A stretch of DNA of 52,223 nt from Treponema sp. Lineage in GTDB: Bacteria > Spirochaetota > Spirochaetia > Treponematales > Breznakiellaceae. Both the position numbers and the translations under genes were made by a program. Shown here in pieces: positions 907 to 29,525 of the stretch. Each line of letters starts with the position of its first letter. Position 1 is the stretch's first letter. Below the pieces are notes generated by a model, which saw only the letters and a list, made by a program, of their open reading frames with translations, was not told where the DNA came from and ran no database searches. Location: the NCBI GenBank assembly GCA_009787835.1, contig WQSN01000015.1, forward strand, positions 1-52,223. Reading direction: 5' to 3'.

Positions 907-1879
907 AGATGCTAAAATATATATAGCAGGACACACAGGATTGGTAGGCGGTGCGATTACCCGTTACCTGAAAAGATCAGGTTACACAAATCTGATTACA
1001 AGGGAACTGGATGAGCTAGACTTAACAAATCAAAGAGATACAAATAATTTCTTTGAAAAAGAAAAACCTGAATATGTATTTCTCGCCGCCGCGAAAGTGG
1101 GAGGAATTGGAGCAAACTCAACATATCCTGCTGATTTCATCTATATCAATACAATGATAGGTTTTAATGTAATTAATGCCGCGTATAAAAGCGGAGTAAA
1201 GAAACTCATCAATCTTGGATCATCATGTATTTATCCCAAACTCGCGCCTCAGCCTATGAAAGAAGAATACCTTTTATCAGATTATCTTGAGCCGACCAAT
1301 GAGGCTTATGCGATAGCTAAAATAAGCGTGATAAAACTATGCTCGTACTACAACCGGCAATACGGGACAGATTTTCTCTCTGTAATGCCTACCAACCTTT
1401 ACGGTCCAGGGGATAATTATGATCCTGAAGGCTCCCATGTACTGCCTGCGCTTATCCGTAAATTCCATGAGGCGAAAGAAACGGGCAAGGATCGTGTAAC
1501 GCTATGGGGTGATGGCTCTCCAAGGCGTGAGTTTTTGTACAGCGAGGATCTTGCAAGAGCATTGGTTATGCTGATGCAGAATACGGACTGTAAAGATTTA
1601 TCAAACCCCGCAGGCGATTTTGTCAACATAGGAAGCGGCAAGGATCAGACAATCAGGGAACTGGCGGAAAAAATACGGGATATCGTTTACGAAGATGTTC
1701 CCGGCAGAACATGCGTCATTGAATGGGATGCATCCAAACCCAACGGCACGCCGCAGAAGCTGCTTGATATTTCTCGAATTACAGCTTTGGGATTTACTCC
1801 TGAGATTGAATTATCCGAAGGGATTAAACTCAGCTATAATGATTATTTAAAAAATATTCCTGACTTCATTCCCATCTAA
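899..1879 (+). CDS. fcl: GDP-L-fucose synthase
   Basis: NADPH-dependent epimerase/reductase that turns the Gmd product into GDP-L-fucose. The 326 aa length is normal for the family. Near the N terminus is the glycine-rich nucleotide motif (AGHTGLVGG). The LGSSCIYPK segment carries the catalytic Ser/Cys, and the Tyr-x-x-x-Lys pair is in [20 protein letters not shown] is characteristic of WcaG/Fcl. The ATG at 899 lies inside the last codons of gmd, so the start is fixed by the overlap. Together with the export and chain-length genes that converge on it, this suggests fucose or a derived 6-deoxysugar in a surface polysaccharide; the link to that particular polymer is inference. Confidence 0.95.
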
Positions 1880-1954
1880 TCTCTCCCACCTTCAAGTCTA
1901 TAACTTTTCTCTCAAAAAAAATACCTATTCTTATTTACAAATTTCTTACTTCTA

Positions 1955-1990
1955 ATTGTTTAATTTATTTCATTATTAAATTCAAACAAT
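1955..1990. terminator. AT-rich inverted repeat between convergent genes
   Basis: Arms at 1955-1966 and 1978-1990 (ATTGTTTAATTT against AAATTCAAACAAT) pair with one bulged base, around an 11-base loop. It sits between the converging ends of fcl and the wza-like gene. The stem is weak and AT-rich, so a terminator role is only a suggestion. Confidence 0.3.
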
Positions 1991-1996
1991 CAATCT

Positions 1997-3520
1997 TTAC
2001 CTTGAATTAATAAATGTTATAATGGAAAAGAAACTGGTAATTAAAGAAAGAAAAGTAGTCACGACAGGACCGTATTGATTAAAATAATAAAGAAAGTGAT
2101 TTGTTATTGCAGTTATTGTAGTTTCAGGAGTTATTATATCGGTTTTATTTAATCGTTTCCCGTTCATGTCAACTATTTCTATTCTATTTGCCGCATTACG
2201 GCTTGGGACAAATCCGCCGGCAAGGCCGATATAATATTCCCAGTCGCGATCGGGAATATAAGGATAACGGCCGGGACTTAAAACTGCTCCGGCAACTGAA
2301 ACAAAGTACTGCCTGAACGGAATTATAAGAGTGTCGTTTTCCTGCACAAGCACATTACCGCTGTAAAATGCATCGTAAAGAATAAGATTTAAATCAATAG
2401 GTATGCGTTCATTTTTACGGATGATATATGCGTTTTTTATATCTGAAACTTCAGAAAACCAGCTCTCATTTCTGCGGACAAGGGATGAGTATGTTTCCCC
2501 ATCATTAAAACGCATAATAATCCGGCTGGAAGATGAAGCGGAACTTGCCGCGGTTCTGCCTACCGCGCCTTCTACAAACATAACAGGTTGCAGTAATAAT
2601 ATTTCCGGAACATAAACCGAATCAAAGTGCTCCAGAGGGTAATTATTAATAAAATCAATTTCATTCAAAAATATTTTATCACCTGAAATTCCCCTGGTGT
2701 TAATATATCGTACAATTTCAATTTTTGCGCTGTCTGCAAAAGCAGTATAGCCGTTGCCGTAAAAATCAATTAGTTCATTTATATTTTCTCCGTCCAGCAG
2801 TTGATATATCCCTGGCCGTTTTACTTCTCCTTCAATTGTTACGATACGTTTGGCTTTATTAAACGTTATTGTATCTCCCGGACGCAGGTACGGATCCTGA
2901 GTTTGGTCGCCTAACCGCTGTGCCTTAAAAAGATCGTATACTCTTGTTTGTCCGTTGGAAGCCCTTATTGATACATCGCGGATTGACGCGAAATCAGTTA
3001 AATTTGTTACGATTAACGATGAAAGTCTGCTTAATCCCCATGCGTCAATATCTCCCGCGAGGTTTACCTCGCCGTTAATGGAAACCCTGAAGATAGCCGG
3101 TTGAGTCAGTACCAATTGCACTCCGCTTAATGGGTAATTGTTGGAAATAATGTTTTCGACTTCAGTCTTTAAATTTATAAAAGTTCTTCCGGCTCCGTTA
3201 ATAACCCCAAGATTAGAAACGCGGATTCTGTACGATGAATCTACAGTAATTACATAGTTTACCTGCGAGGTGCCGGCGGCATAAGATAAAGTATATACAT
3301 CTCCCGGAGTCACCCTGTAATCGGAGCTTGAGCGGGCAAGCATTAAAATCCGACCCGTATCAATTGAAGGCATTGTTATTGTATTTACAGGAGGTCTAAC
3401 GGTTGTAGTTGCTTGTGTGGCCGAACCAGGATTAGTATTTGATGTTGTCCTGTCCTGGGCGAAGGAGGATAATATAATGAAAAATAACAGGATAAATATG
3501 CAGACTAATTTATTCTTCAT
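1997..3520 (-). CDS. Wza-like polysaccharide export protein with SLBB domains
   Basis: Probable periplasmic/outer-membrane component of a polysaccharide exporter. The 507 aa product starts with a signal peptide (residues 1-21, hydrophobic run ending SSFA before Q), which looks like signal peptidase I rather than lipoprotein processing because no lipobox Cys follows. A polysaccharide biosynthesis/export domain is visible from about residue 68 (YRVTPGDVYTLSY) to 155. SLBB-type beta-grasp repeats follow (VTIEGEVKRPGIYQL near 230; VSVAGAVLSPGRYPY near 410). A hydrophobic segment near 480-505 could cross the membrane, as in Wza. The ATG has an AGAGGA ribosome site. It overlaps the upstream Wzz-like gene by 11 bases, so the two are made together. 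The cognate cytoplasmic genes are not in the window apart from gmd and fcl. Confidence 0.85.
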   Translation of the reverse strand: MKNKLVCIFILLFFIILSSFAQDRTTSNTNPGSATQATTTVRPPVNTITMPSIDTGRILMLARSSSDYRVTPGDVYTLSYAAGTSQVNYVITVDSSYRIRVSNLGVINGAGRTFINLKTEVENIISNNYPLSGVQLVLTQPAIFRVSINGEVNLAGDIDAWGLSRLSSLIVTNLTDFASIRDVSIRASNGQTRVYDLFKAQRLGDQTQDPYLRPGDTITFNKAKRIVTIEGEVKRPGIYQLLDGENINELIDFYGNGYTAFADSAKIEIVRYINTRGISGDKIFLNEIDFINNYPLEHFDSVYVPEILLLQPVMFVEGAVGRTAASSASSSSRIIMRFNDGETYSSLVRRNESWFSEVSDIKNAYIIRKNERIPIDLNLILYDAFYSGNVLVQENDTLIIPFRQYFVSVAGAVLSPGRYPYIPDRDWEYYIGLAGGFVPSRNAANRIEIVDMNGKRLNKTDIITPETTITAITNHFLYYFNQYGPVVTTFLSLITSFFSIITFINSR

Positions 3521-4523
3521 TAATTCCTCTTAGTTTTGCCATAGCCTTCGGATCTTTTCTGATATTTACAATAGCGTTAATGACAAATGCCAAAAAAACA
3601 GAAACGAAAAATCCCGCAAGAGTAACAATGATGCATAACATTTCCCTGTTAGGTTTTGATTCTTTGTCCGGTATTTCCGCCATTTCCAGGATTTGAAAAA
3701 TGGGCGTTTCGCTTGCCATGCTTATTTTTAATAGTTCGTACTGTACTCTAAGCTGAGTGTAGATCTGCCGCTTGGCTGTTAACTCTAGAGTGATTCTGTT
3801 TATATCTGATGTAATTGCAGGAAGCCTTCCATAGGGAGATGCGGTAGCGACTGTCAGTTCCAGGCTCCGGCTTTCTTCTTCAAGCTGTATAATTTCCTGA
3901 AAGGTATTATCAATGTTAAATTCCAGATTATCCCTTTCAATTAAATTTTTATCCAGACCAAGTTCAATAAAACGTCTTTCAAGGTATGTTGTGCAAAAAT
4001 TAACAATATCTCTTGCAAAAACCGGATCTCTATGGGTAAAACCTATGCTGAGTACGCCGCTTTTTTGATCATACGAAGGCGTAAGCGGCCCTCTGATTAT
4101 ATTTCTGCTTGTTGTTTTTGGGGATTTACTTAAATTATATTTTTTTATCAAATCAAACTGATCTACAACTGAGTCAAGAAATGAATTGGTATTTATAAGG
4201 TATAACGCAAGTTCGCTGAAACTTGAGCCTGATGACATGCTTATTCCGGCAAGAGATGCCAATCCGCCCAACGCTGACGATATGCTTCCGCCTGATGATC
4301 TGTTTTCAATAAGCATCAATGCCTGTGGAGTATAAAGATTTGGGTAAAACGACTTTTCAGGCGGCATATTGTCAGAAACATATGAGAAAATATTTACCCC
4401 AATACCCGCAAGTACGGTAACTACCAGTATCATGATTTTATACCGCCAAACAACGGCAAAAAGGTCTATTAAACTGATTTCATCATCAGATTCATTTTCT
4501 TTCTTTTCAATTTCTTCGTTCAT
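3510..4523 (-). CDS. Wzz/GumC-type chain-length determinant protein
   Basis: Polysaccharide co-polymerase of the inner membrane that sets polymer chain length. An acidic N-terminal tail (EEIEKKENESDDEISLIDLF) is followed by a first membrane helix at about residues 25-48. A periplasmic region has a Ser/Gly-rich stretch and a coiled-coil part near residues 200-260. A second membrane helix at about 295-318 is preceded by the Pro-containing EIPDKESKPNRE segment that marks the family. No C-terminal tyrosine kinase is fused. The ATG at 4523 is chosen because GGAG lies just ahead of it; the in-frame GTG nine bases upstream has no ribosome site. The stop overlaps the Wza-like gene. Confidence 0.85.
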   Translation of the reverse strand: MNEEIEKKENESDDEISLIDLFAVVWRYKIMILVVTVLAGIGVNIFSYVSDNMPPEKSFYPNLYTPQALMLIENRSSGGSISSALGGLASLAGISMSSGSSFSELALYLINTNSFLDSVVDQFDLIKKYNLSKSPKTTSRNIIRGPLTPSYDQKSGVLSIGFTHRDPVFARDIVNFCTTYLERRFIELGLDKNLIERDNLEFNIDNTFQEIIQLEEESRSLELTVATASPYGRLPAITSDINRITLELTAKRQIYTQLRVQYELLKISMASETPIFQILEMAEIPDKESKPNREMLCIIVTLAGFFVSVFLAFVINAIVNIRKDPKAMAKLRGINEE

Positions 4524-4588
4524 ATACTCCACATTTGTTACTGTTATGCATTAAATTTTCGGCTATATACTAAATATAGTGAATTTTA

Positions 4589-6571
4589 TTAAATTTGTCC
4601 ATAATAGGGAAGAATTTTAGCCGCAATCATCTCCCATTCGCGATTTTTTTCCTCAATGGCCGTTATGCACATATCAATTTTTTCTTTTACCGCCCTTGCT
4701 TTTTCTCCGTTTGAGTAAATTTCCTGCCGCGACAGTTCCGCTTCATAATGTTTTTTCTCCCTGTTAAGTTCTTCCAAAACTGCAAGAATCTCCTTCTCCT
4801 GCCTTTCCAGCCTGCGAATCACTGTCTGCTTCTGCTTTTCAGCTAAACGCCTCTCTTCACTGTTAATTCCTGCCTGTTTTTCTACCGTAAATCTCTCTTC
4901 ACAGCTCATTTCAAGTTTCTCATTTTTGATTCCAATTTTATCCAGGTAGTACGCATAATTCCCATAATATAGTTTCACGGCGGCGGGTTCTGCTGCTGTT
5001 GCGGGGCGTAACTCAAGAGTTTTTGTGGAGAGGGTTTCCATGAACGCGCGGTCATGGGAGACAAAAATAATAGTGCCTGTAAATTTTTTAAGCGCGTCCA
5101 GCAGAATGTCCTTTGAATAGAGATCGAGGTGATTTGTAGGTTCATCCAATACCAGGAGATTCATGGGTTTCAGGAACATTTTTAATAGGGCAAGGCGGCT
5201 TTTTTCGCCGCCGCTCAGAACAGAAACGCTCTTGTAGACATCGTCGCCGCGGAATAAAAAAGCACCCAGCATATCGCGCAGTTTGGGGATTAAAGCCGTA
5301 GGTGACTGAGACTCCATAAACTCAATTATTGATTCATTTGAATCAAGCGTCTCCGCCGCGTCCTGTGAGAAGTATCCTGCTTTTATACCGCTGCCATATT
5401 TAACGGTTCCGGTAAAATTACTGTCTATGCCGGCTATAATCCGCAGTAATGTACTCTTGCCCGCGCCGTTTACACCGGCTACTACAAGCCTTTCTCCTGA
5501 GTCAATGCACAGGTCAAGGCAGGAGAGTACTTTTCGCTCTCCGTAACTTTTACCGATACTTTCCAGGGTTAAAGCGACATTACCTGAATGCGGCGGAGGC
5601 GGGAAACTAATATTTATCTTTTTAAGTGATTCAGGTATTTGAACACGTTCCATTTTTTCCAGACGTTTGATCAGTTCCTGCGCGAAAGCTGCCTTAGATG
5701 CCTTGTAGCGGAAACGCCGTATAAGGGCTTCAGTTTTTATTATTTCATCCTGCTGTTCGTGATAACGTTTAATAAGGCTGGCAAGTTCTGTCTGACGGAC
5801 TTTTTCATAGGCACTGTAATTACCCGCGTATCGTTTTAAATTTCCGTTAAAAATTTCGTATACTTCATCAACGCACATATCCAGAAAGTACCGGTCATGG
5901 GAAACCAAAAGATAACCTCCTGGAAAAGTATTCAGCCATTCTTCAAGCCAGGCTCTTGCTTCAATATCAAGGTAATTTGTAGGCTCATCCAAAAGCAGAA
6001 TGTCGGGTTTTTCCAGGAGAACTTTGGCAAGGGCAATACGCATCTGCCAGCCGCCTGAAAATTCTCCCGTGTCGCGATCAAGGTCTGACAAGGAAAAACC
6101 AAGGCCTGTCAGAACCATTGAAATGGCCGCCTCTCTTCTGTAATATCCGGAAGCTTCAATCTGCTCCTGTAAATTGTGATGCTCTTCAATTAATATTTTC
6201 GCAGATGATTCATCGGCTTTGGTTTTTTCCAGCAAGGCGCCGATTTCTTCAAACTGCTCAATTAATACATGGATAAAATGAAACGCGGTTTCTGCCTCAT
6301 CGCGGAGGCTTTTTCCGCGGTGAACAATTCCCGACTGAGGCAGGTAGGATATGCGCGTTCCCTTCTGAATGGCGCGGTCTCCGGAATCGGCTGCCGTTTT
6401 GCCTGCGATTATTTTCATTAATGTGGATTTTCCGCTGCCATTCGCGCCTGTCAGACAGGAACGGGAACCTGCGGCGAGGCGCAGGCTTATATTTTTCAGA
6501 ATATCCCTGTCGCCGAATGCAAGAGAAATGCCTGAAAACTGAACTGAAAAGCTGTTCTTTACAAAGACCAT
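4589..6571 (-). CDS. ABC-F family ATPase
   Basis: Soluble protein with two ABC ATPase domains and no membrane segments, as in ABC-F translation factors. Domain 1 has Walker A GANGSGKST (residues 42-50), signature FSGGW and Walker B with DEPTNYLD. Domain 2 has GVNGAGKST, signature LSGGEKSR and DEPTNHLD. Both domains end in the VSHDR switch. An inter-domain linker rich in Lys/Arg/Glu and a C-terminal coiled coil (about residues 560-650) resemble the Uup/YheS branch. ABC-F proteins act on the ribosome; a specific role in stalling relief or antibiotic resistance cannot be read from the sequence. The ATG is two bases downstream of the preceding stop and has no clear ribosome site, suggesting translational coupling. 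Confidence 0.9.
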   Translation of the reverse strand: MVFVKNSFSVQFSGISLAFGDRDILKNISLRLAAGSRSCLTGANGSGKSTLMKIIAGKTAADSGDRAIQKGTRISYLPQSGIVHRGKSLRDEAETAFHFIHVLIEQFEEIGALLEKTKADESSAKILIEEHHNLQEQIEASGYYRREAAISMVLTGLGFSLSDLDRDTGEFSGGWQMRIALAKVLLEKPDILLLDEPTNYLDIEARAWLEEWLNTFPGGYLLVSHDRYFLDMCVDEVYEIFNGNLKRYAGNYSAYEKVRQTELASLIKRYHEQQDEIIKTEALIRRFRYKASKAAFAQELIKRLEKMERVQIPESLKKINISFPPPPHSGNVALTLESIGKSYGERKVLSCLDLCIDSGERLVVAGVNGAGKSTLLRIIAGIDSNFTGTVKYGSGIKAGYFSQDAAETLDSNESIIEFMESQSPTALIPKLRDMLGAFLFRGDDVYKSVSVLSGGEKSRLALLKMFLKPMNLLVLDEPTNHLDLYSKDILLDALKKFTGTIIFVSHDRAFMETLSTKTLELRPATAAEPAAVKLYYGNYAYYLDKIGIKNEKLEMSCEERFTVEKQAGINSEERRLAEKQKQTVIRRLERQEKEILAVLEELNREKKHYEAELSRQEIYSNGEKARAVKEKIDMCITAIEEKNREWEMIAAKILPYYGQI

Positions 6572-25217: not shown

Positions 25218-27737
25218 ATGCTTATGAGTGCCGGAAGCTCCGCTGCTAGTACAAGAGATAATCTGGAAAATCTGCTGGAAAGCCCTGAATTTGCACCTAA
25301 TACCATAATTAACAGGTTATTGCCAGCCATGGATGGGGTATATGCTCCCTTTCCGGATGGTCTGGATGTCCGGATTATAAAATCTTTGAACAGAAGAGGG
25401 ATTGAACGGCTCTATATTCATCAGGCTGAAGTGTGGAAGCAGGCGCAAGCCGGTAAAAATGTTGTTGTTGTCACTCCTACAGCTTCCGGTAAAACGTTAT
25501 GTTACAATTTACCGTGTTTACACGCGCTATTAACAGATGATAAAGCGCGTTGTCTGTATCTTTTTCCCACGAAAGCGCTTTCCCAGGATCAGCAATCGGA
25601 ATTAAATGAAATTTCAGGCGGCGATGAGGGACTGAACCTAAAAATAGCGACTTATGACGGAGATACGCCTGAAAGTTTGCGCATATCGGCGCGCGACAGC
25701 GGCAGAATCATCATTTCAAATCCTGATATGCTGCATACAGGCATTCTTCCCAATCATCCTAAATGGATAAAGTTCTTTTCCAACTTAAAATTCATTGTAA
25801 TTGACGAAGCCCACGCTTACCGGGGCGTTATGGGCAGCCATGTAGCCAATGTTATCCGCCGTTTACGCCGTGTCGCGGCGTTTTATGACGCTAAACCGCA
25901 ATTTATCCTCTGCTCGGCGACTATCGCAAATCCCGGAGAACTCGCGCAGGCGCTAATAGGTCAAAATGTAGAGTTAGTTGATAAAAACGGCTCTCCGCGC
26001 GGTGAAAAGAGAATAATTCTCTACAATCCGCCTTTGGTAGACGCTGTGCAGGGCATCCGCCGTTCTGTTGTCAGTGAAAGCCGTCGCTGGATGATTGCTT
26101 TACTGAAGGCGGGGATAAAAACCATTCTTTTTGCACATTCACGTATAAGAACAGAAGTAGCCGCCTCCTATGTAAATGAGGATTTAGCCAATATCTTTAC
26201 TGACAATTCACGTATCCGGGTAGAAGCGTATCGCGGCGGATTTTTACCTAACGAACGCCGCCAGATTGAGAAAGGTTTAAGGGAAGGTACAATCCAGGGA
26301 GTAGTTTCGACTAATGCGCTGGAACTTGGAATAGATATCGGCGGTCTTGACGCTTCTGTGGTTGCGGGCTTTCCCGGTTCCTTTAACAGTTTCTGGCAGC
26401 AGTCGGGCAGGGCAGGCAGGAGGGGCGGTACTTCTGTTTCTGTGTTTATTGCCAGTGTATCTCCTATCGATCAGTTTATTATGAATGATCCTGAGTGGTT
26501 TTTCCGTAAAAACGCCGAAGAAGCCCGCGTTGACCCCGATAATCCGTACATTCTGACAGATCATGTGAAATGCGCGTGTTTTGAACTGCCGTTCAGGGAT
26601 GATGAACTAACAATGAATAATGAACAATCAGCGATTAACAATATTGAAAGAGTTTATGGTGAGAATGCTCTTGACGCGCTTGAGTATCTTGAGGAAGCGG
26701 GGATTGTGCGCTATACAGGAGAGAAATGGCATTGGGCAGACAGATCATACCCTGCCGAAGGTGTAAGCCTTCGCTCCGCCGGAGCGGATAATGTTGTGAT
26801 AATTGATGTAACAGACGGCAGAAACGCGGTAATTGGTGAGATGGACAGGCCAAGTGCTAAGGAAATGCTCTTTGTTAACGCAGTTTATATCCACCGCGGA
26901 CGTCAGTATATGGTTGAACTATTGGACATCGAAAACCGTAAATGCCATGTCAGGGAAGCCGATGTTAATTATTTTACAGACGGTTTGGTGAAGACAGATA
27001 TTAAGGTGTTAACTGAAGATGAAAGGGTTAAGGTGGGGAATGGGGAGTGGGGAGTGGGGAGTAGAGAATTGGGATTAGGGAGTGGGGAGTTTGATTTGAT
27101 TAATCGGGATGATATGTCAACTCACGATTCTAAGTTTCCTGTTCAAAGTTCTCAAACATCAATCCCTACTCCCGACTCCCCACTCCCGACTCCCCACCAT
27201 CCACTCCCCACTCCCTACTCCCTGGAAACAGTGCTTGGTGATGTTTTAGTCCGTTCTCAGATGACCAAGTTTAAAAAACTGCGATTCCGTACCCATGAGA
27301 ATATCGGCTACGGGGACATCAGCCTGCCTGAGGAAGAAATGCAGTCGCGCGGGCTTTCTTTGCTTTTCGCGCCGGACAGCGCGGGAGGGAAGGTGTTAGC
27401 TGCAATGGATGAGCAGCAGATCGGCGAAGCGCTTTCAGGCACAGGCGCTTTGATACGCAACATCGCGCCGGTTTTTCTGCTGTGCGATCCGCGCGATCTT
27501 GGAATTGCCGAGCGTGTAAAAGATCCCCACTTTGGCGTAAGCGCGCTTTATATCTACGATAAATATCCCGGGGGAACCGGTCTTACAGAAAGCCTTGCCC
27601 GCCGCCTGGAACCTCTGTTATGCGCCATTCTTGAAGCCATTGAACGCTGCCCCTGCAAAAACGGCTGCCCTTCATGCGTTGGGCCTGGAGGAAATAAGGC
27701 TGCGGCGAGAGAACTTTTAACGGCGATTGGCAAATAA
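25218..27737 (+). CDS. mrfA: MrfA/YprA-type DEAH helicase with DUF1998 zinc domain
   Basis: Superfamily 2 DNA helicase of about 839 aa. Motif I is TPTASGKT (residues 86-93), motif II DEAH (about 196-199) and motif VI QQSGRAGRRG (about 394-403). The C-terminal MZB/DUF1998 domain has its four cysteines (CPCKNGCPSC). In Bacillus subtilis the homologue MrfA works with exonuclease MrfB in mitomycin C repair; a MrfB-like gene lies 2.5 kb downstream. Two features are odd: an Asn-rich insertion near residue 470 and a 65-residue insertion (about 605-670) encoded by an inverted G/C-rich repeat, both in frame. The first ATG (25218) and one two codons later both have GGAG or AGGA close by. An inverted repeat TGTGAA-N7-TTCACA lies just upstream. 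Confidence 0.88.
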   Translation: MLMSAGSSAASTRDNLENLLESPEFAPNTIINRLLPAMDGVYAPFPDGLDVRIIKSLNRRGIERLYIHQAEVWKQAQAGKNVVVVTPTASGKTLCYNLPCLHALLTDDKARCLYLFPTKALSQDQQSELNEISGGDEGLNLKIATYDGDTPESLRISARDSGRIIISNPDMLHTGILPNHPKWIKFFSNLKFIVIDEAHAYRGVMGSHVANVIRRLRRVAAFYDAKPQFILCSATIANPGELAQALIGQNVELVDKNGSPRGEKRIILYNPPLVDAVQGIRRSVVSESRRWMIALLKAGIKTILFAHSRIRTEVAASYVNEDLANIFTDNSRIRVEAYRGGFLPNERRQIEKGLREGTIQGVVSTNALELGIDIGGLDASVVAGFPGSFNSFWQQSGRAGRRGGTSVSVFIASVSPIDQFIMNDPEWFFRKNAEEARVDPDNPYILTDHVKCACFELPFRDDELTMNNEQSAINNIERVYGENALDALEYLEEAGIVRYTGEKWHWADRSYPAEGVSLRSAGADNVVIIDVTDGRNAVIGEMDRPSAKEMLFVNAVYIHRGRQYMVELLDIENRKCHVREADVNYFTDGLVKTDIKVLTEDERVKVGNGEWGVGSRELGLGSGEFDLINRDDMSTHDSKFPVQSSQTSIPTPDSPLPTPHHPLPTPYSLETVLGDVLVRSQMTKFKKLRFRTHENIGYGDISLPEEEMQSRGLSLLFAPDSAGGKVLAAMDEQQIGEALSGTGALIRNIAPVFLLCDPRDLGIAERVKDPHFGVSALYIYDKYPGGTGLTESLARRLEPLLCAILEAIERCPCKNGCPSCVGPGGNKAAARELLTAIGK
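26606..26645 (+). repeat. Asn-rich in-frame insertion in mrfA
   Basis: Low-complexity stretch of AACAATGA-like words encoding TMNNEQSAINN. It falls between the helicase core and the next domain. The same words occur in tsaB (45483-45530), so it is probably a dispersed repeat that inserts without breaking frames. Confidence 0.5.
27029..27224. repeat. Inverted GGGGAGT repeat with G-quadruplex motif inside mrfA
   Basis: A G-rich arm (27029-27090, units of GGGGAGT) and a C-rich arm (27160-27224, units of ACTCCCC) are imperfect reverse complements around about 70 bases. In the G arm, four GGGG tracts separated by three-base loops (27035-27059) form a canonical quadruplex motif on the coding strand. 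The whole repeat stays in frame. Confidence 0.8.
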
Positions 27738-27789: not shown

Positions 27790-27814
27790 AAAATACCAAC
27801 AGGAGATGTTTAAC

Positions 27815-29452
27815 ATGAAAAGGTTTATTATCTTTTTTGTTCTTTTTTCTATCGTTACATTATTTTCTTTTACTCAACAGAAATTCGCGCTTGTTATAGG
27901 GAATGGAGCTTATGTACATACTACCCATCTTAACAATCCTGTAAATGACGCGAATGACATGGAAGCCGCTCTGCGCGCTTTGGGTTTTACTGTTGATAAG
28001 GTTTTAAACGCCTCGCAGGATCAGATGGTTAACGCTGTCATGCAGTTAAAAAGGCAGCTTGGCGCGTCAAGAAATTCCTACGGTTTTTTATTTTATGCGG
28101 GCCATGGTGTGCAGTCAGGCGGCGAGAACTTTTTAATCCCTGTTGACGCCAATATTCCAAGCGAGAATTTTCTGCGCAACCGCACTGTCTCCGTTCAGGA
28201 AATGCTTGACGAACTGAACGACGCCGGCAATGAATTCAATGTTGTAGTCCTTGACGCCTGCCGTGACAATCCATTCAGCTGGAGGCGTTCAGGCTCACGC
28301 GGTCTTTCAGTTGTTGGACACCAGCCCGCGGACAGTATTGTCGTTTACGCCACTGCCGCGGGTTCTACCGCCGCGGACGGAACAGGCAGGAACGGCTTAT
28401 TTACCTCTCACCTGTTAAACAATCTTAATATACCCGGTCTTGAAGTAACCGAAGTCTTCCGCCGCACAGGCGCCGATGTAGCCAGCGCCAGCGGTAACAC
28501 TCAACGCCCTGCCGTTTACAATCAATTTTACGGAACAGCGTATTTGGGAACAAGACCTGCGCCAGCCGTAGCCCAGCCGCCAGTACAGTCAACACAATCC
28601 GTGCCAACTACGACAGTACAATCTGCTCCTGCACAGTCAACCCAGCCTGCCTCTGCCGCGCCAACTATAACGCCTGCTCCATCGACAACAACTTCCGCCG
28701 CCTCGGCAGTTCCCGCAAATATGGTACGCATAAACGGCGGGACTTTTGCCATGGGCAGCCCATCTAATGAGGCAGGGCGTGGTAGTGGTGAAACACAATG
28801 GCAGGTAACAGTAAGTTCATTTAACATGAGTAAGTATGAAGTAACACAAAAAGAATACCAGGAAGTAATGGGAGTAAATCCCAGTTGGTTTAAAGGAGAT
28901 AATTTACCAGTAGAGCAAGTAACGTGGTTTGACGCGATAGAATATTGCAATAGACGCAGCCAGAGAGAAGGATTAACACCAGCGTATACAATAACAGGCA
29001 GAACACCTGCGAGCGGATATCCAATAATAGCGGCGACAGTAACATGGAACCGCAGTGCGAACGGATACAGACTACCGACAGAAGCGGAATGGGAATATGC
29101 CTGCCGGGCAGGGACAACAACAGCGTACAATACAGGTAACGCGATAAACACTAATACAGGCTGGTATATCGCGAATAGTAATGGCAGAACACAGCCTGTA
29201 GGGCAGAAAACCGCGAATGCTTGGGGATTGTATGATATGCACGGGAATGTATTGGAGTGGTGCTGGGATTGGTCTGGAACATACCCAAACGAAGCGCAAA
29301 CAGACCCGGTGGGTGCTTCTTCGGGGTTTATCCGCGTGTATCGCGGCGGGAGCTGGAGCGGTTCGGTCGCTGACGCCCGTTCTGCGGGTCGGTACGGCAG
29401 CAATCCGCCTTACCGGTATTTCAATATCGGTTTCCGCGTGGTCCGCCCCTAG
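27815..29452 (+). CDS. Secreted caspase (C14) fused to FGE-like C-lectin domain
   Basis: 545 aa fusion. An N-terminal signal peptide (about residues 1-20) precedes a metacaspase/caspase p20-type domain with ALVIGNGAY, the His of FYAGHG (residue 97) and the Cys of LDACRDNPF (residue 149). A Pro/Ser/Thr/Gln linker (about 255-305) leads to a formylglycine-generating-enzyme-like domain (MVRINGGTFAMGSP, YEVTQKEYQEVMG, RLPTEAEWEYACRAG, GNVLEWCWDW, RGGSW, IGFRVVRP). The last 39 codons look like a retroelement-diversified region (separate feature). The ATG at 27815 is preferred because AGGAG is nine bases away; the ATG at 27806 is too close. Proteolytic and binding roles are inferred; neither substrate nor ligand is known. 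Confidence 0.88.
   Translation: MKRFIIFFVLFSIVTLFSFTQQKFALVIGNGAYVHTTHLNNPVNDANDMEAALRALGFTVDKVLNASQDQMVNAVMQLKRQLGASRNSYGFLFYAGHGVQSGGENFLIPVDANIPSENFLRNRTVSVQEMLDELNDAGNEFNVVVLDACRDNPFSWRRSGSRGLSVVGHQPADSIVVYATAAGSTAADGTGRNGLFTSHLLNNLNIPGLEVTEVFRRTGADVASASGNTQRPAVYNQFYGTAYLGTRPAPAVAQPPVQSTQSVPTTTVQSAPAQSTQPASAAPTITPAPSTTTSAASAVPANMVRINGGTFAMGSPSNEAGRGSGETQWQVTVSSFNMSKYEVTQKEYQEVMGVNPSWFKGDNLPVEQVTWFDAIEYCNRRSQREGLTPAYTITGRTPASGYPIIAATVTWNRSANGYRLPTEAEWEYACRAGTTTAYNTGNAINTNTGWYIANSNGRTQPVGQKTANAWGLYDMHGNVLEWCWDWSGTYPNEAQTDPVGASSGFIRVYRGGSWSGSVADARSAGRYGSNPPYRYFNIGFRVVRP
29333..29449 (+). other. Candidate DGR variable region at 3' end of FGE domain
   Basis: Codons for the framework RGGSW, ARSA, NP, IGFRVVRP are interrupted by positions whose codons are tat, agc, ggt, tcg, gtc, gac, ggt, tac, ggc, agc, aat, cct, tac, tat, ttc and aat. 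All but one end in C or T, as expected if the template has AAC/AAT at these places and adenines are mutated. The location, just before the stop of a C-lectin-fold domain, is the usual one. No template repeat or reverse transcriptase is in the window. Confidence 0.55.
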
Positions 29453-29465
29453 TTTGCAGGGTATA

Positions 29466-29525
29466 GTGACTGTCACCACTTTTCGTCTAGTGTCGTTATG
29501 CGCAATGAGACGCTATATATAGCGT
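29466..29525. repeat. Palindromes downstream of the candidate variable region
   Basis: GTGAC-T-GTCAC (29466-29476) begins 14 bases after the stop codon, and a perfect 16-base palindrome ACGCTATATATAGCGT follows at 29510-29525. A third hairpin, ATCCGCGGA/TCCGTGGAT, lies at 29542-29569. They could be terminators, or target-site structures such as those found after DGR variable regions. Confidence 0.5.

Follow-up and report, generated by a model that had tools for sequence, protein, structure and literature searches.

The closest described relative of the locus reported here is the TvpA-type diversity-generating retroelement (DGR) of Treponema denticola. All targets of that system are reported to carry an FGE-sulfatase domain, and the main text of its description does not use the word caspase (PMC4891356). 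The gene that we describe lies in the window, the whole 52,223-nt stretch of DNA analysed, and shares with the T. denticola system an FGE domain of C-lectin fold that carries the variable region (VR) at its very end, as well as several remote targets. The HRDC accessory overlapping the RT, as given in the T. denticola account, is seen here in the congener G015 (PMC4891356). In contrast to TvpA, the window domain stands behind a caspase and a linker, the protein shows no lipobox by eye, and no cassette was found in the draft genome.

Two further groups of proteins resemble the window protein. Cyanobacterial orthocaspase-CLec proteins join a caspase-family protease to a C-terminal, DGR-diversified C-lectin, and include remote variable proteins (PMC7517822). 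The window protein contains the Peptidase_C14 domain (PF00656) by which an orthocaspase is defined. However, the cyanobacterial variable proteins are described in that source as mostly cytosolic by prediction (PMC7517822), whereas the window protein bears a likely signal peptide and belongs to the spirochaete TvpA-type family. DGR conflict systems also combine diversified FGE/C-lectin sensors with caspase-like, trypsin-like or TIR effectors (PMC10907252, PMC7159879). The systems covered by these two papers are of the STAND NTPase or MoxR-vWA kind, and the window protein is compared with them by description; its likely signal peptide speaks against the role of a phage sensor in the cytosol. Within the DGR literature that we searched, which covered few subscription papers, no caspase-FGE target is described in a spirochaete. 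Taken with the complete cassette that a congener has for the same architecture, a caspase that bears a likely signal peptide and a diversified lectin face points to targeted hypermutation as a way of steering an exported protease.

The caspase-FGE gene and its C-terminal domain

The caspase-FGE gene (27806–29452, plus strand, as are all features of the window below) is an open reading frame for a protein of 548 aa with two Pfam domains, PF00656 and PF03781. Reading the translation by eye, we notice a likely Sec signal peptide without a lipobox cysteine (MFNMKRFIIFFVLFSIVTLFSFTQQ, 27806–27880). The caspase (Peptidase_C14) domain follows at residues 26–239 (27881–28522; PF00656, E = 4e-39) and includes the motifs FYAGHG and VVLDACRDNP, assigned as the His and Cys motifs by eye only. 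A Pro/Thr/Ser/Ala-rich linker, also delimited by eye (28523–28717), leads to the FGE-sulfatase domain of C-type-lectin fold at residues 305–547 (28718–29446; PF03781, E = 5e-51), which reaches the C-terminus. The VR, 41 codons collinear with the DGR templates of congeners, occupies 29327–29449. It thus sits at the 3' end of a C-lectin-fold domain, as DGR variable regions do. The GC content is 0.66 in the last 117 nt of the gene and 0.49 in its remainder.

The first-pass annotation had proposed that the last 39 codons (29333–29449, an interval that is correct) alternate invariant and variable positions in the manner of a DGR variable region, with all but one variable codon ending in C or T. The alternation is real and of the DGR type. 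With a congener template as the outside guide for picking the variable codons, 16 such codons were identified among the last 41. At these positions, which are Asn, Thr or Ile in the template, 15 of 16 codons end in C/T, compared with 268/509 in the remainder of the gene (binomial P = 5e-4). In the window gene on its own this bias is modest and suggestive only; it becomes strong because dispersed relatives in the same genome can be added.

Among solved structures, the best match to the FGE domain is T. denticola TvpA (2y3c), a known DGR target, with a phmmer E-value of 9e-37 and an alignment that extends through the 3' segment of TvpA, its VR. An AlphaFold2 model of the domain, built with 25 sequences, has a mean pLDDT of 92. 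In a Foldseek search of the PDB with this model, 2y3c ranks first (E = 5e-24, TM-score 0.88 by query length, 34% identity) and human FGE ranks below it. The relation to the TvpA family, the VR segment included, is therefore upheld by both sequence and fold. The window VR aligns to the segment of human FGE bearing the active-site cysteines C336 and C341, whose identity we took from the titles of the mutant structures 2aft and 2afy, and no Cys is present in the aligned window segment. Since the VR covers this segment and is free of Cys, the domain most likely serves for binding rather than catalysis.

Templates and variable regions in the genus

The window is contig C15, complete, of the genome G000, a draft of 3.08 Mb in 143 contigs that is 96% complete and 8.4% contaminated. 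Its relatives are Treponema MAGs, and from the isolate codes we take the source of the closest ones to be termite gut. Our genus set comprises 39 genomes, among them the congeners G003, G005, G015, G016, G025, G036 and G037. RVT_1 matched in 11 of the 39, G000 not among them, leaving 28/39 without a match. A DNA search of the genus with the window VR returned two matches each on one contig of G015 and one of G025, and in both cases one match lies before an RT and the other after it.

The G015 contig (C43, locus L106) holds a complete cassette with target, HRDC accessory, RT and template (TR) in that order. The target is a caspase-FGE protein of 543 aa (1812–3443) with both Pfam domains in the same order as in the window. 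An HRDC protein of 152 aa (3553–4011) and an RT with the motif IGNLTSQ (3987–5009) follow, and the TR overlaps the end of the RT gene and continues past it. TR and VR of this locus differ at 21 of 148 positions, of which 19 are template adenines and the other two stand just after the stop codon.

Near-repeat pairs of this kind are present in 8 of 12 examined congener loci that bear an RT or a VR, and 151 of their 168 summed differences fall at adenines of one copy (19/21, 19/24, 22/25, 20/21, 19/20, 19/21, 14/16 and 19/20 for the single pairs). Two of the loci, L108 and L110, have two extra repeat pairs each, without adenine bias. Five HRDC-type templates can be read as peptide, and all are asparagine-rich. 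The TR/VR-like pairs in eight of 12 loci indicate a common occurrence of DGRs within the genus, and in one of its members the sequence marks a caspase-FGE protein as a DGR target.

In the G036 locus L109 (minus strand; VR 4790–4939, TR 2922–3071), a TAA stop interrupts the TR in mid-frame, and at that codon the VR reads TGA, so that the target would be truncated unless adenine rewriting makes a sense codon. The VR-bearing frame of this locus was left out of the Pfam search.

The window VR compares directly with these templates. Its 41 codons align without gaps to the TRs of G015 and G025. At codon positions 1 and 2, the window has changed 18/29 adenines and 7/53 other bases of the G015 TR (Fisher p = 8e-6), and 20/34 adenines and 6/48 other bases of the G025 TR (p = 1e-5), where sites are treated as independent and the templates come from congeners rather than being cognate. 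Twelve paralogues of G000 behave alike at these codon positions, with 180/310 adenines and 92/574 other bases changed against the G015 TR, and 224/368 and 73/516 against the G025 TR; L002 and L009 carry indels and entered with only their last 16 codons. The changes thus concentrate on template adenines, as in a DGR variable region, and they do so in a protein that is probably exported, as the first-pass annotation had supposed. At third positions, 14 of 37 non-adenine sites differ from the G015 TR and 12 of 40 from the G025 TR. These differences identify the two templates as relatives and not the parent, and the window VR as no young copy. Relative to its nearest G016/G015 relative, the window protein has an amino acid identity of 0.78 upstream and 0.47 in the VR, but third positions differ alike (0.43 and 0.39, respectively), and such pairing of each target with its nearest relative was hardly informative.

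Beyond the genus set, relatives of the congeneric RTs were found on viral contigs, with at most 43% identity among the best 80 of 315 matches, and a scan of viral contigs for the VR framework gave 0 matches. The flanks of 78 loci from genome contigs (L114–L191) contain no relative of the RT (tblastn, E 1e-5). The tested neighbours of the window gene (helicase, DNA glycosylase, exonuclease and glycosyltransferase) were not found in these loci either, and hence no syntenic orthologue of the window locus was found there.

Related 3' ends in the genome and their origin

In G000 we obtained 27 FGE matches, of which 24 could be read at the 3' end and three lack it. Twelve tails were chosen by eye for a shared tail, and nine were kept by closer framework (L004, L010 and L020 left out). 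Four G000 loci on short contigs, L002, L003, L011 and L012, share at least 99.4% identity with contigs of the congener G016 and may be binning contamination or shared contigs. Dropping G016-like loci reduced the nine to seven genes, all on contigs of at least 19 kb (as is L020, already out). These seven, the window gene and six other dispersed genes, share the VR framework on differing N-termini. The part before the FGE tip is a caspase in the window gene, L001 and L009, LpoB/TolB_N in L005, CsgG/LpoB in L006 and MBG/PKD in L014, and has no Pfam domain in L008. By eye, the leaders appear exported, several with a lipobox-like cysteine.

The codon alignment of the 12 genes displays many VR columns that are highly diverse at positions 1 and 2 and almost constant at position 3. 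Among the seven genes, the third-position diversity of variable codons is 0.13 in the VR (n = 15) versus 0.58 upstream (n = 52; p = 6e-8), and that of invariant framework codons is 0.08 (n = 11) versus 0.41 (n = 56; p = 2e-4). The third base of variable codons is C at 0.70 and T at 0.28 in the VR, against 0.19 and 0.29 upstream. Because a shared tail, recognised by eye, was the first criterion for the family, the framework test is in part circular; over the 12 paralogues its effect is 0.33 versus 0.45 (p = 0.06). The variable-codon effect over all 23 complete ends is small (0.54 versus 0.64, p = 5e-4). The window copy departs from the nine-gene framework at 8 non-adenine sites, within a range of 4 to 16 over the nine genes. 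Diverse adenine-derived positions on a common framework are what template-directed adenine mutagenesis would give; selection or conversion alone is not expected to give diverse positions 1 and 2 on a shared framework.

The test was extended to congeners with 13 of the 20 FGE matches of G016 (four of them shared loci), 6 of 70 in G003 and 3 of 7 in G015, a choice set by the available DNA and by the motif. The 13 tails of G016 show the effect more weakly and in the same direction (0.38 versus 0.53, p = 0.008, and 0.26 versus 0.42, p = 0.04), and the six G003 tails and three G015 tails show no codon-position effect. Between genomes, compared with nine FGE genes of G016, the third-position difference in the VR is 0.147 within G000 and 0.272 from G000 to G016, and the corresponding upstream values are 0.469 and 0.529.

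Two observations on individual gene sets are added here. The VR of the caspase-FGE gene L009 (G000 C30:19795–20565) has 14 extra codons that look as if the VR start had been partly duplicated in tandem and could stem from a slip in cDNA synthesis. The 3.5-Mb draft of G003 has 70 FGE-sulfatase matches and no RVT_1 match, and the six tails tested there lack a recent common framework.

Having noted no RT and no template repeat in the window, the first-pass annotation assumed a remote cassette. Neither was found in the window, nor in the whole of the draft (143 contigs, 96% complete). RVT_1 gave 0 matches in G000, and a profile of eight congeneric DGR RTs gave a best E-value of 0.18. The template was sought with the window VR, with the G015 TR as DNA and with a degenerate pattern; the strong matches are the ends of FGE genes and one orphan tail, and the remaining ones are short and at chance level. 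A profile of the HRDC accessory found no accessory in G000, its best match lying within a 648-aa ORF. Two matches to PF05635 (the Avd-like four-helix bundle) are on contigs without an FGE match, one of them 77 bases from the contig edge. The assumption gains from the complete DGR with a caspase-FGE target in a congener and loses from the failure to find any cassette in the draft. A genome with neither RT nor template repeat is an outcome that the annotation had named as refuting it; here this applies to the assembly, which is incomplete, and does not extend to the organism.

The orphan tail is a VR-like 3' end without an FGE domain (RVVRGGGWSDSAGVRSARRGGSYQTSQYFRRGFRVARN, G000 C31:920–1063, minus strand, L053). 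We considered and rejected it as the template, since it lacks the richness in asparagine and differs from the window at bases of all kinds, which makes it a stray VR-like end. It directly follows a leucine-rich-repeat gene that looks BspA-like by eye, and its 3' flank is as in L005 and L014.

Taking the comparisons together, we estimate a probability of about 0.88 that the last 41 codons are a VR written by mutagenic retrohoming of a DGR of the TvpA/HRDC type. In this process, a template RNA with predominantly AAC/AAT at its variable codons would be copied with random bases opposite its adenines, and the cDNA would take the place of the gene's 3' end as far as a mark just past the stop codon. 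In G000, seven or more dispersed genes would be written in trans from one template or very similar ones, and the same randomised C-lectin face would be set on differing, apparently exported N-terminal parts. The lectin face may then pick what the caspase, predicted to be exported and active as a protease, binds, either a substrate or an anchoring partner.

The pattern could instead arise in ordinary FGE paralogues under diversifying selection, with C/T endings that reflect codon use and residue preference and with no retroelement at all. The framework residues belong in part to the general FGE fold, being present in PvdO and human FGE, and the codons of Asn, Ser, Tyr, Asp and Gly frequently end in C/T. 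However, C is the third base in 0.19 of the equally variable upstream codons, compared with 0.70 for the VR, and these upstream codons have a diverse position 3; moreover, the VR is collinear with asparagine-rich templates and adenine-biased, and a complete cassette serves the same architecture in a congener. We therefore regard this origin as improbable. We give even less credit to a recent duplication or gene conversion that spread one 3' end among the FGE genes without template-directed mutagenesis. Some 3' flanks past the stop are shared, and an element of about 85 bp is present five times in G000, but conversion would make codon positions 1 and 2 uniform as well, and at these the VR exceeds the upstream part in diversity. 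Gene conversion may additionally act on the flanks.

A reading that differs from retrohoming by a working DGR in present activity only is that the VR was written by a DGR since lost, which leaves the caspase with one frozen face under ordinary mutation. We rate its chance as a little short of even. No RT, TR or accessory was found in the G000 draft, RVT_1 has no match in 28 of the 39 genomes in the genus set and in 10 of the 14 with a VR-like DNA match, and the orphan tail at C31:920–1063 has been left without its domain. The mark past the stop codon is missing in five of ten G000 tails. Some T. denticola isolates also have target genes without RT or TR, described as likely leftovers (PMC4891356). 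On the other hand, the VR frameworks within G000 are far more alike than the domains that carry them, which implies that writing continued well beyond the separation of the genes. The draft, too, is incomplete, and L001 is a caspase-FGE gene whose VR, the most similar to the G015 template, stops some 130 bases short of the edge of contig C23, with the 85-bp element in between. That the cassette lies beyond this edge is a guess. Only tentatively, and at somewhat less than an even chance, do we propose that one unassembled cassette of the TvpA/HRDC type writes in trans an exported repertoire of 7–10 or more proteins, caspases included. If such a cassette does so, the spirochaete would possess a set of extracellular sensor-proteases whose specificities are re-drawn as needed. 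One VR framework on quite different N-termini makes trans-acting diversification testable in Treponema of an uncultured community.

Signals and repeats downstream of the variable region

In all five HRDC-type cassettes (G005, G015, G025, G036 and G037), the stop codon is followed by TT in the VR and by CC or CT in the TR. The window has the VR form, identical to the VR of G015: the mark CGCCCC TAG TTTG (CGCCCCTAGTTTG, 29444–29456), which resembles an initiation-of-mutagenic-homing sequence. A role of this mark in homing can be inferred. The sequence has this sole match within two mismatches in the window, where 0.92 is expected by chance. Among the 39 stop-to-stop frames of at least 200 codons in the window, TT[TC][GT] directly after the stop is seen only in the caspase-FGE gene. 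The G000 tails without the mark are L005, L006, L008, L009 and L014; L001, L010 and L020 have a longer form of it, and in L004 it takes the form seen in the G025 VR.

Further downstream, a perfect 16-nt palindrome (ACGCTATATATAGCGT, 29510–29525) is the only perfect palindrome of at least 16 nt in the 52-kb window. A cruciform after the VR is described as a cis element of known DGRs (PMC7517822), and by analogy the palindrome is a candidate for such a cruciform. In L001, L010 and L020, an 8-bp GC-rich hairpin is located at almost the same distance, and many other tails gave none in our scan. The hairpin has one compensated pair (L001 versus L010 and L020) and lies within the element of about 85 bp.

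This element was found five times in G000, with E-values up to 0.001 and each time at most about 110 bases downstream of a VR-family gene (C23:1–130, C84:3058–3142, C36:7287–7371, C47:1237–1322 and C16:41905–41976). A second segment, of about 100 bp (AATTAGGTTTATTTGTT...GGCGTG), follows the VR in L005, L014 and the orphan tail of C31. In L005 and L014 it precedes the CCCCTAG/CCCCTGG-plus-element that directly follows the VR in L001 and L010, which gives the impression of an insertion at the edge of the VR. Upstream of the caspase-FGE gene, we also notice by eye that a helicase-like ORF (25218–27737) contains an in-frame low-complexity stretch (GNGEWGVGSRELGLGSGEF ... PTPDSPLPTPHHPLPTPYS), which looks like a dispersed repeat translated in frame.
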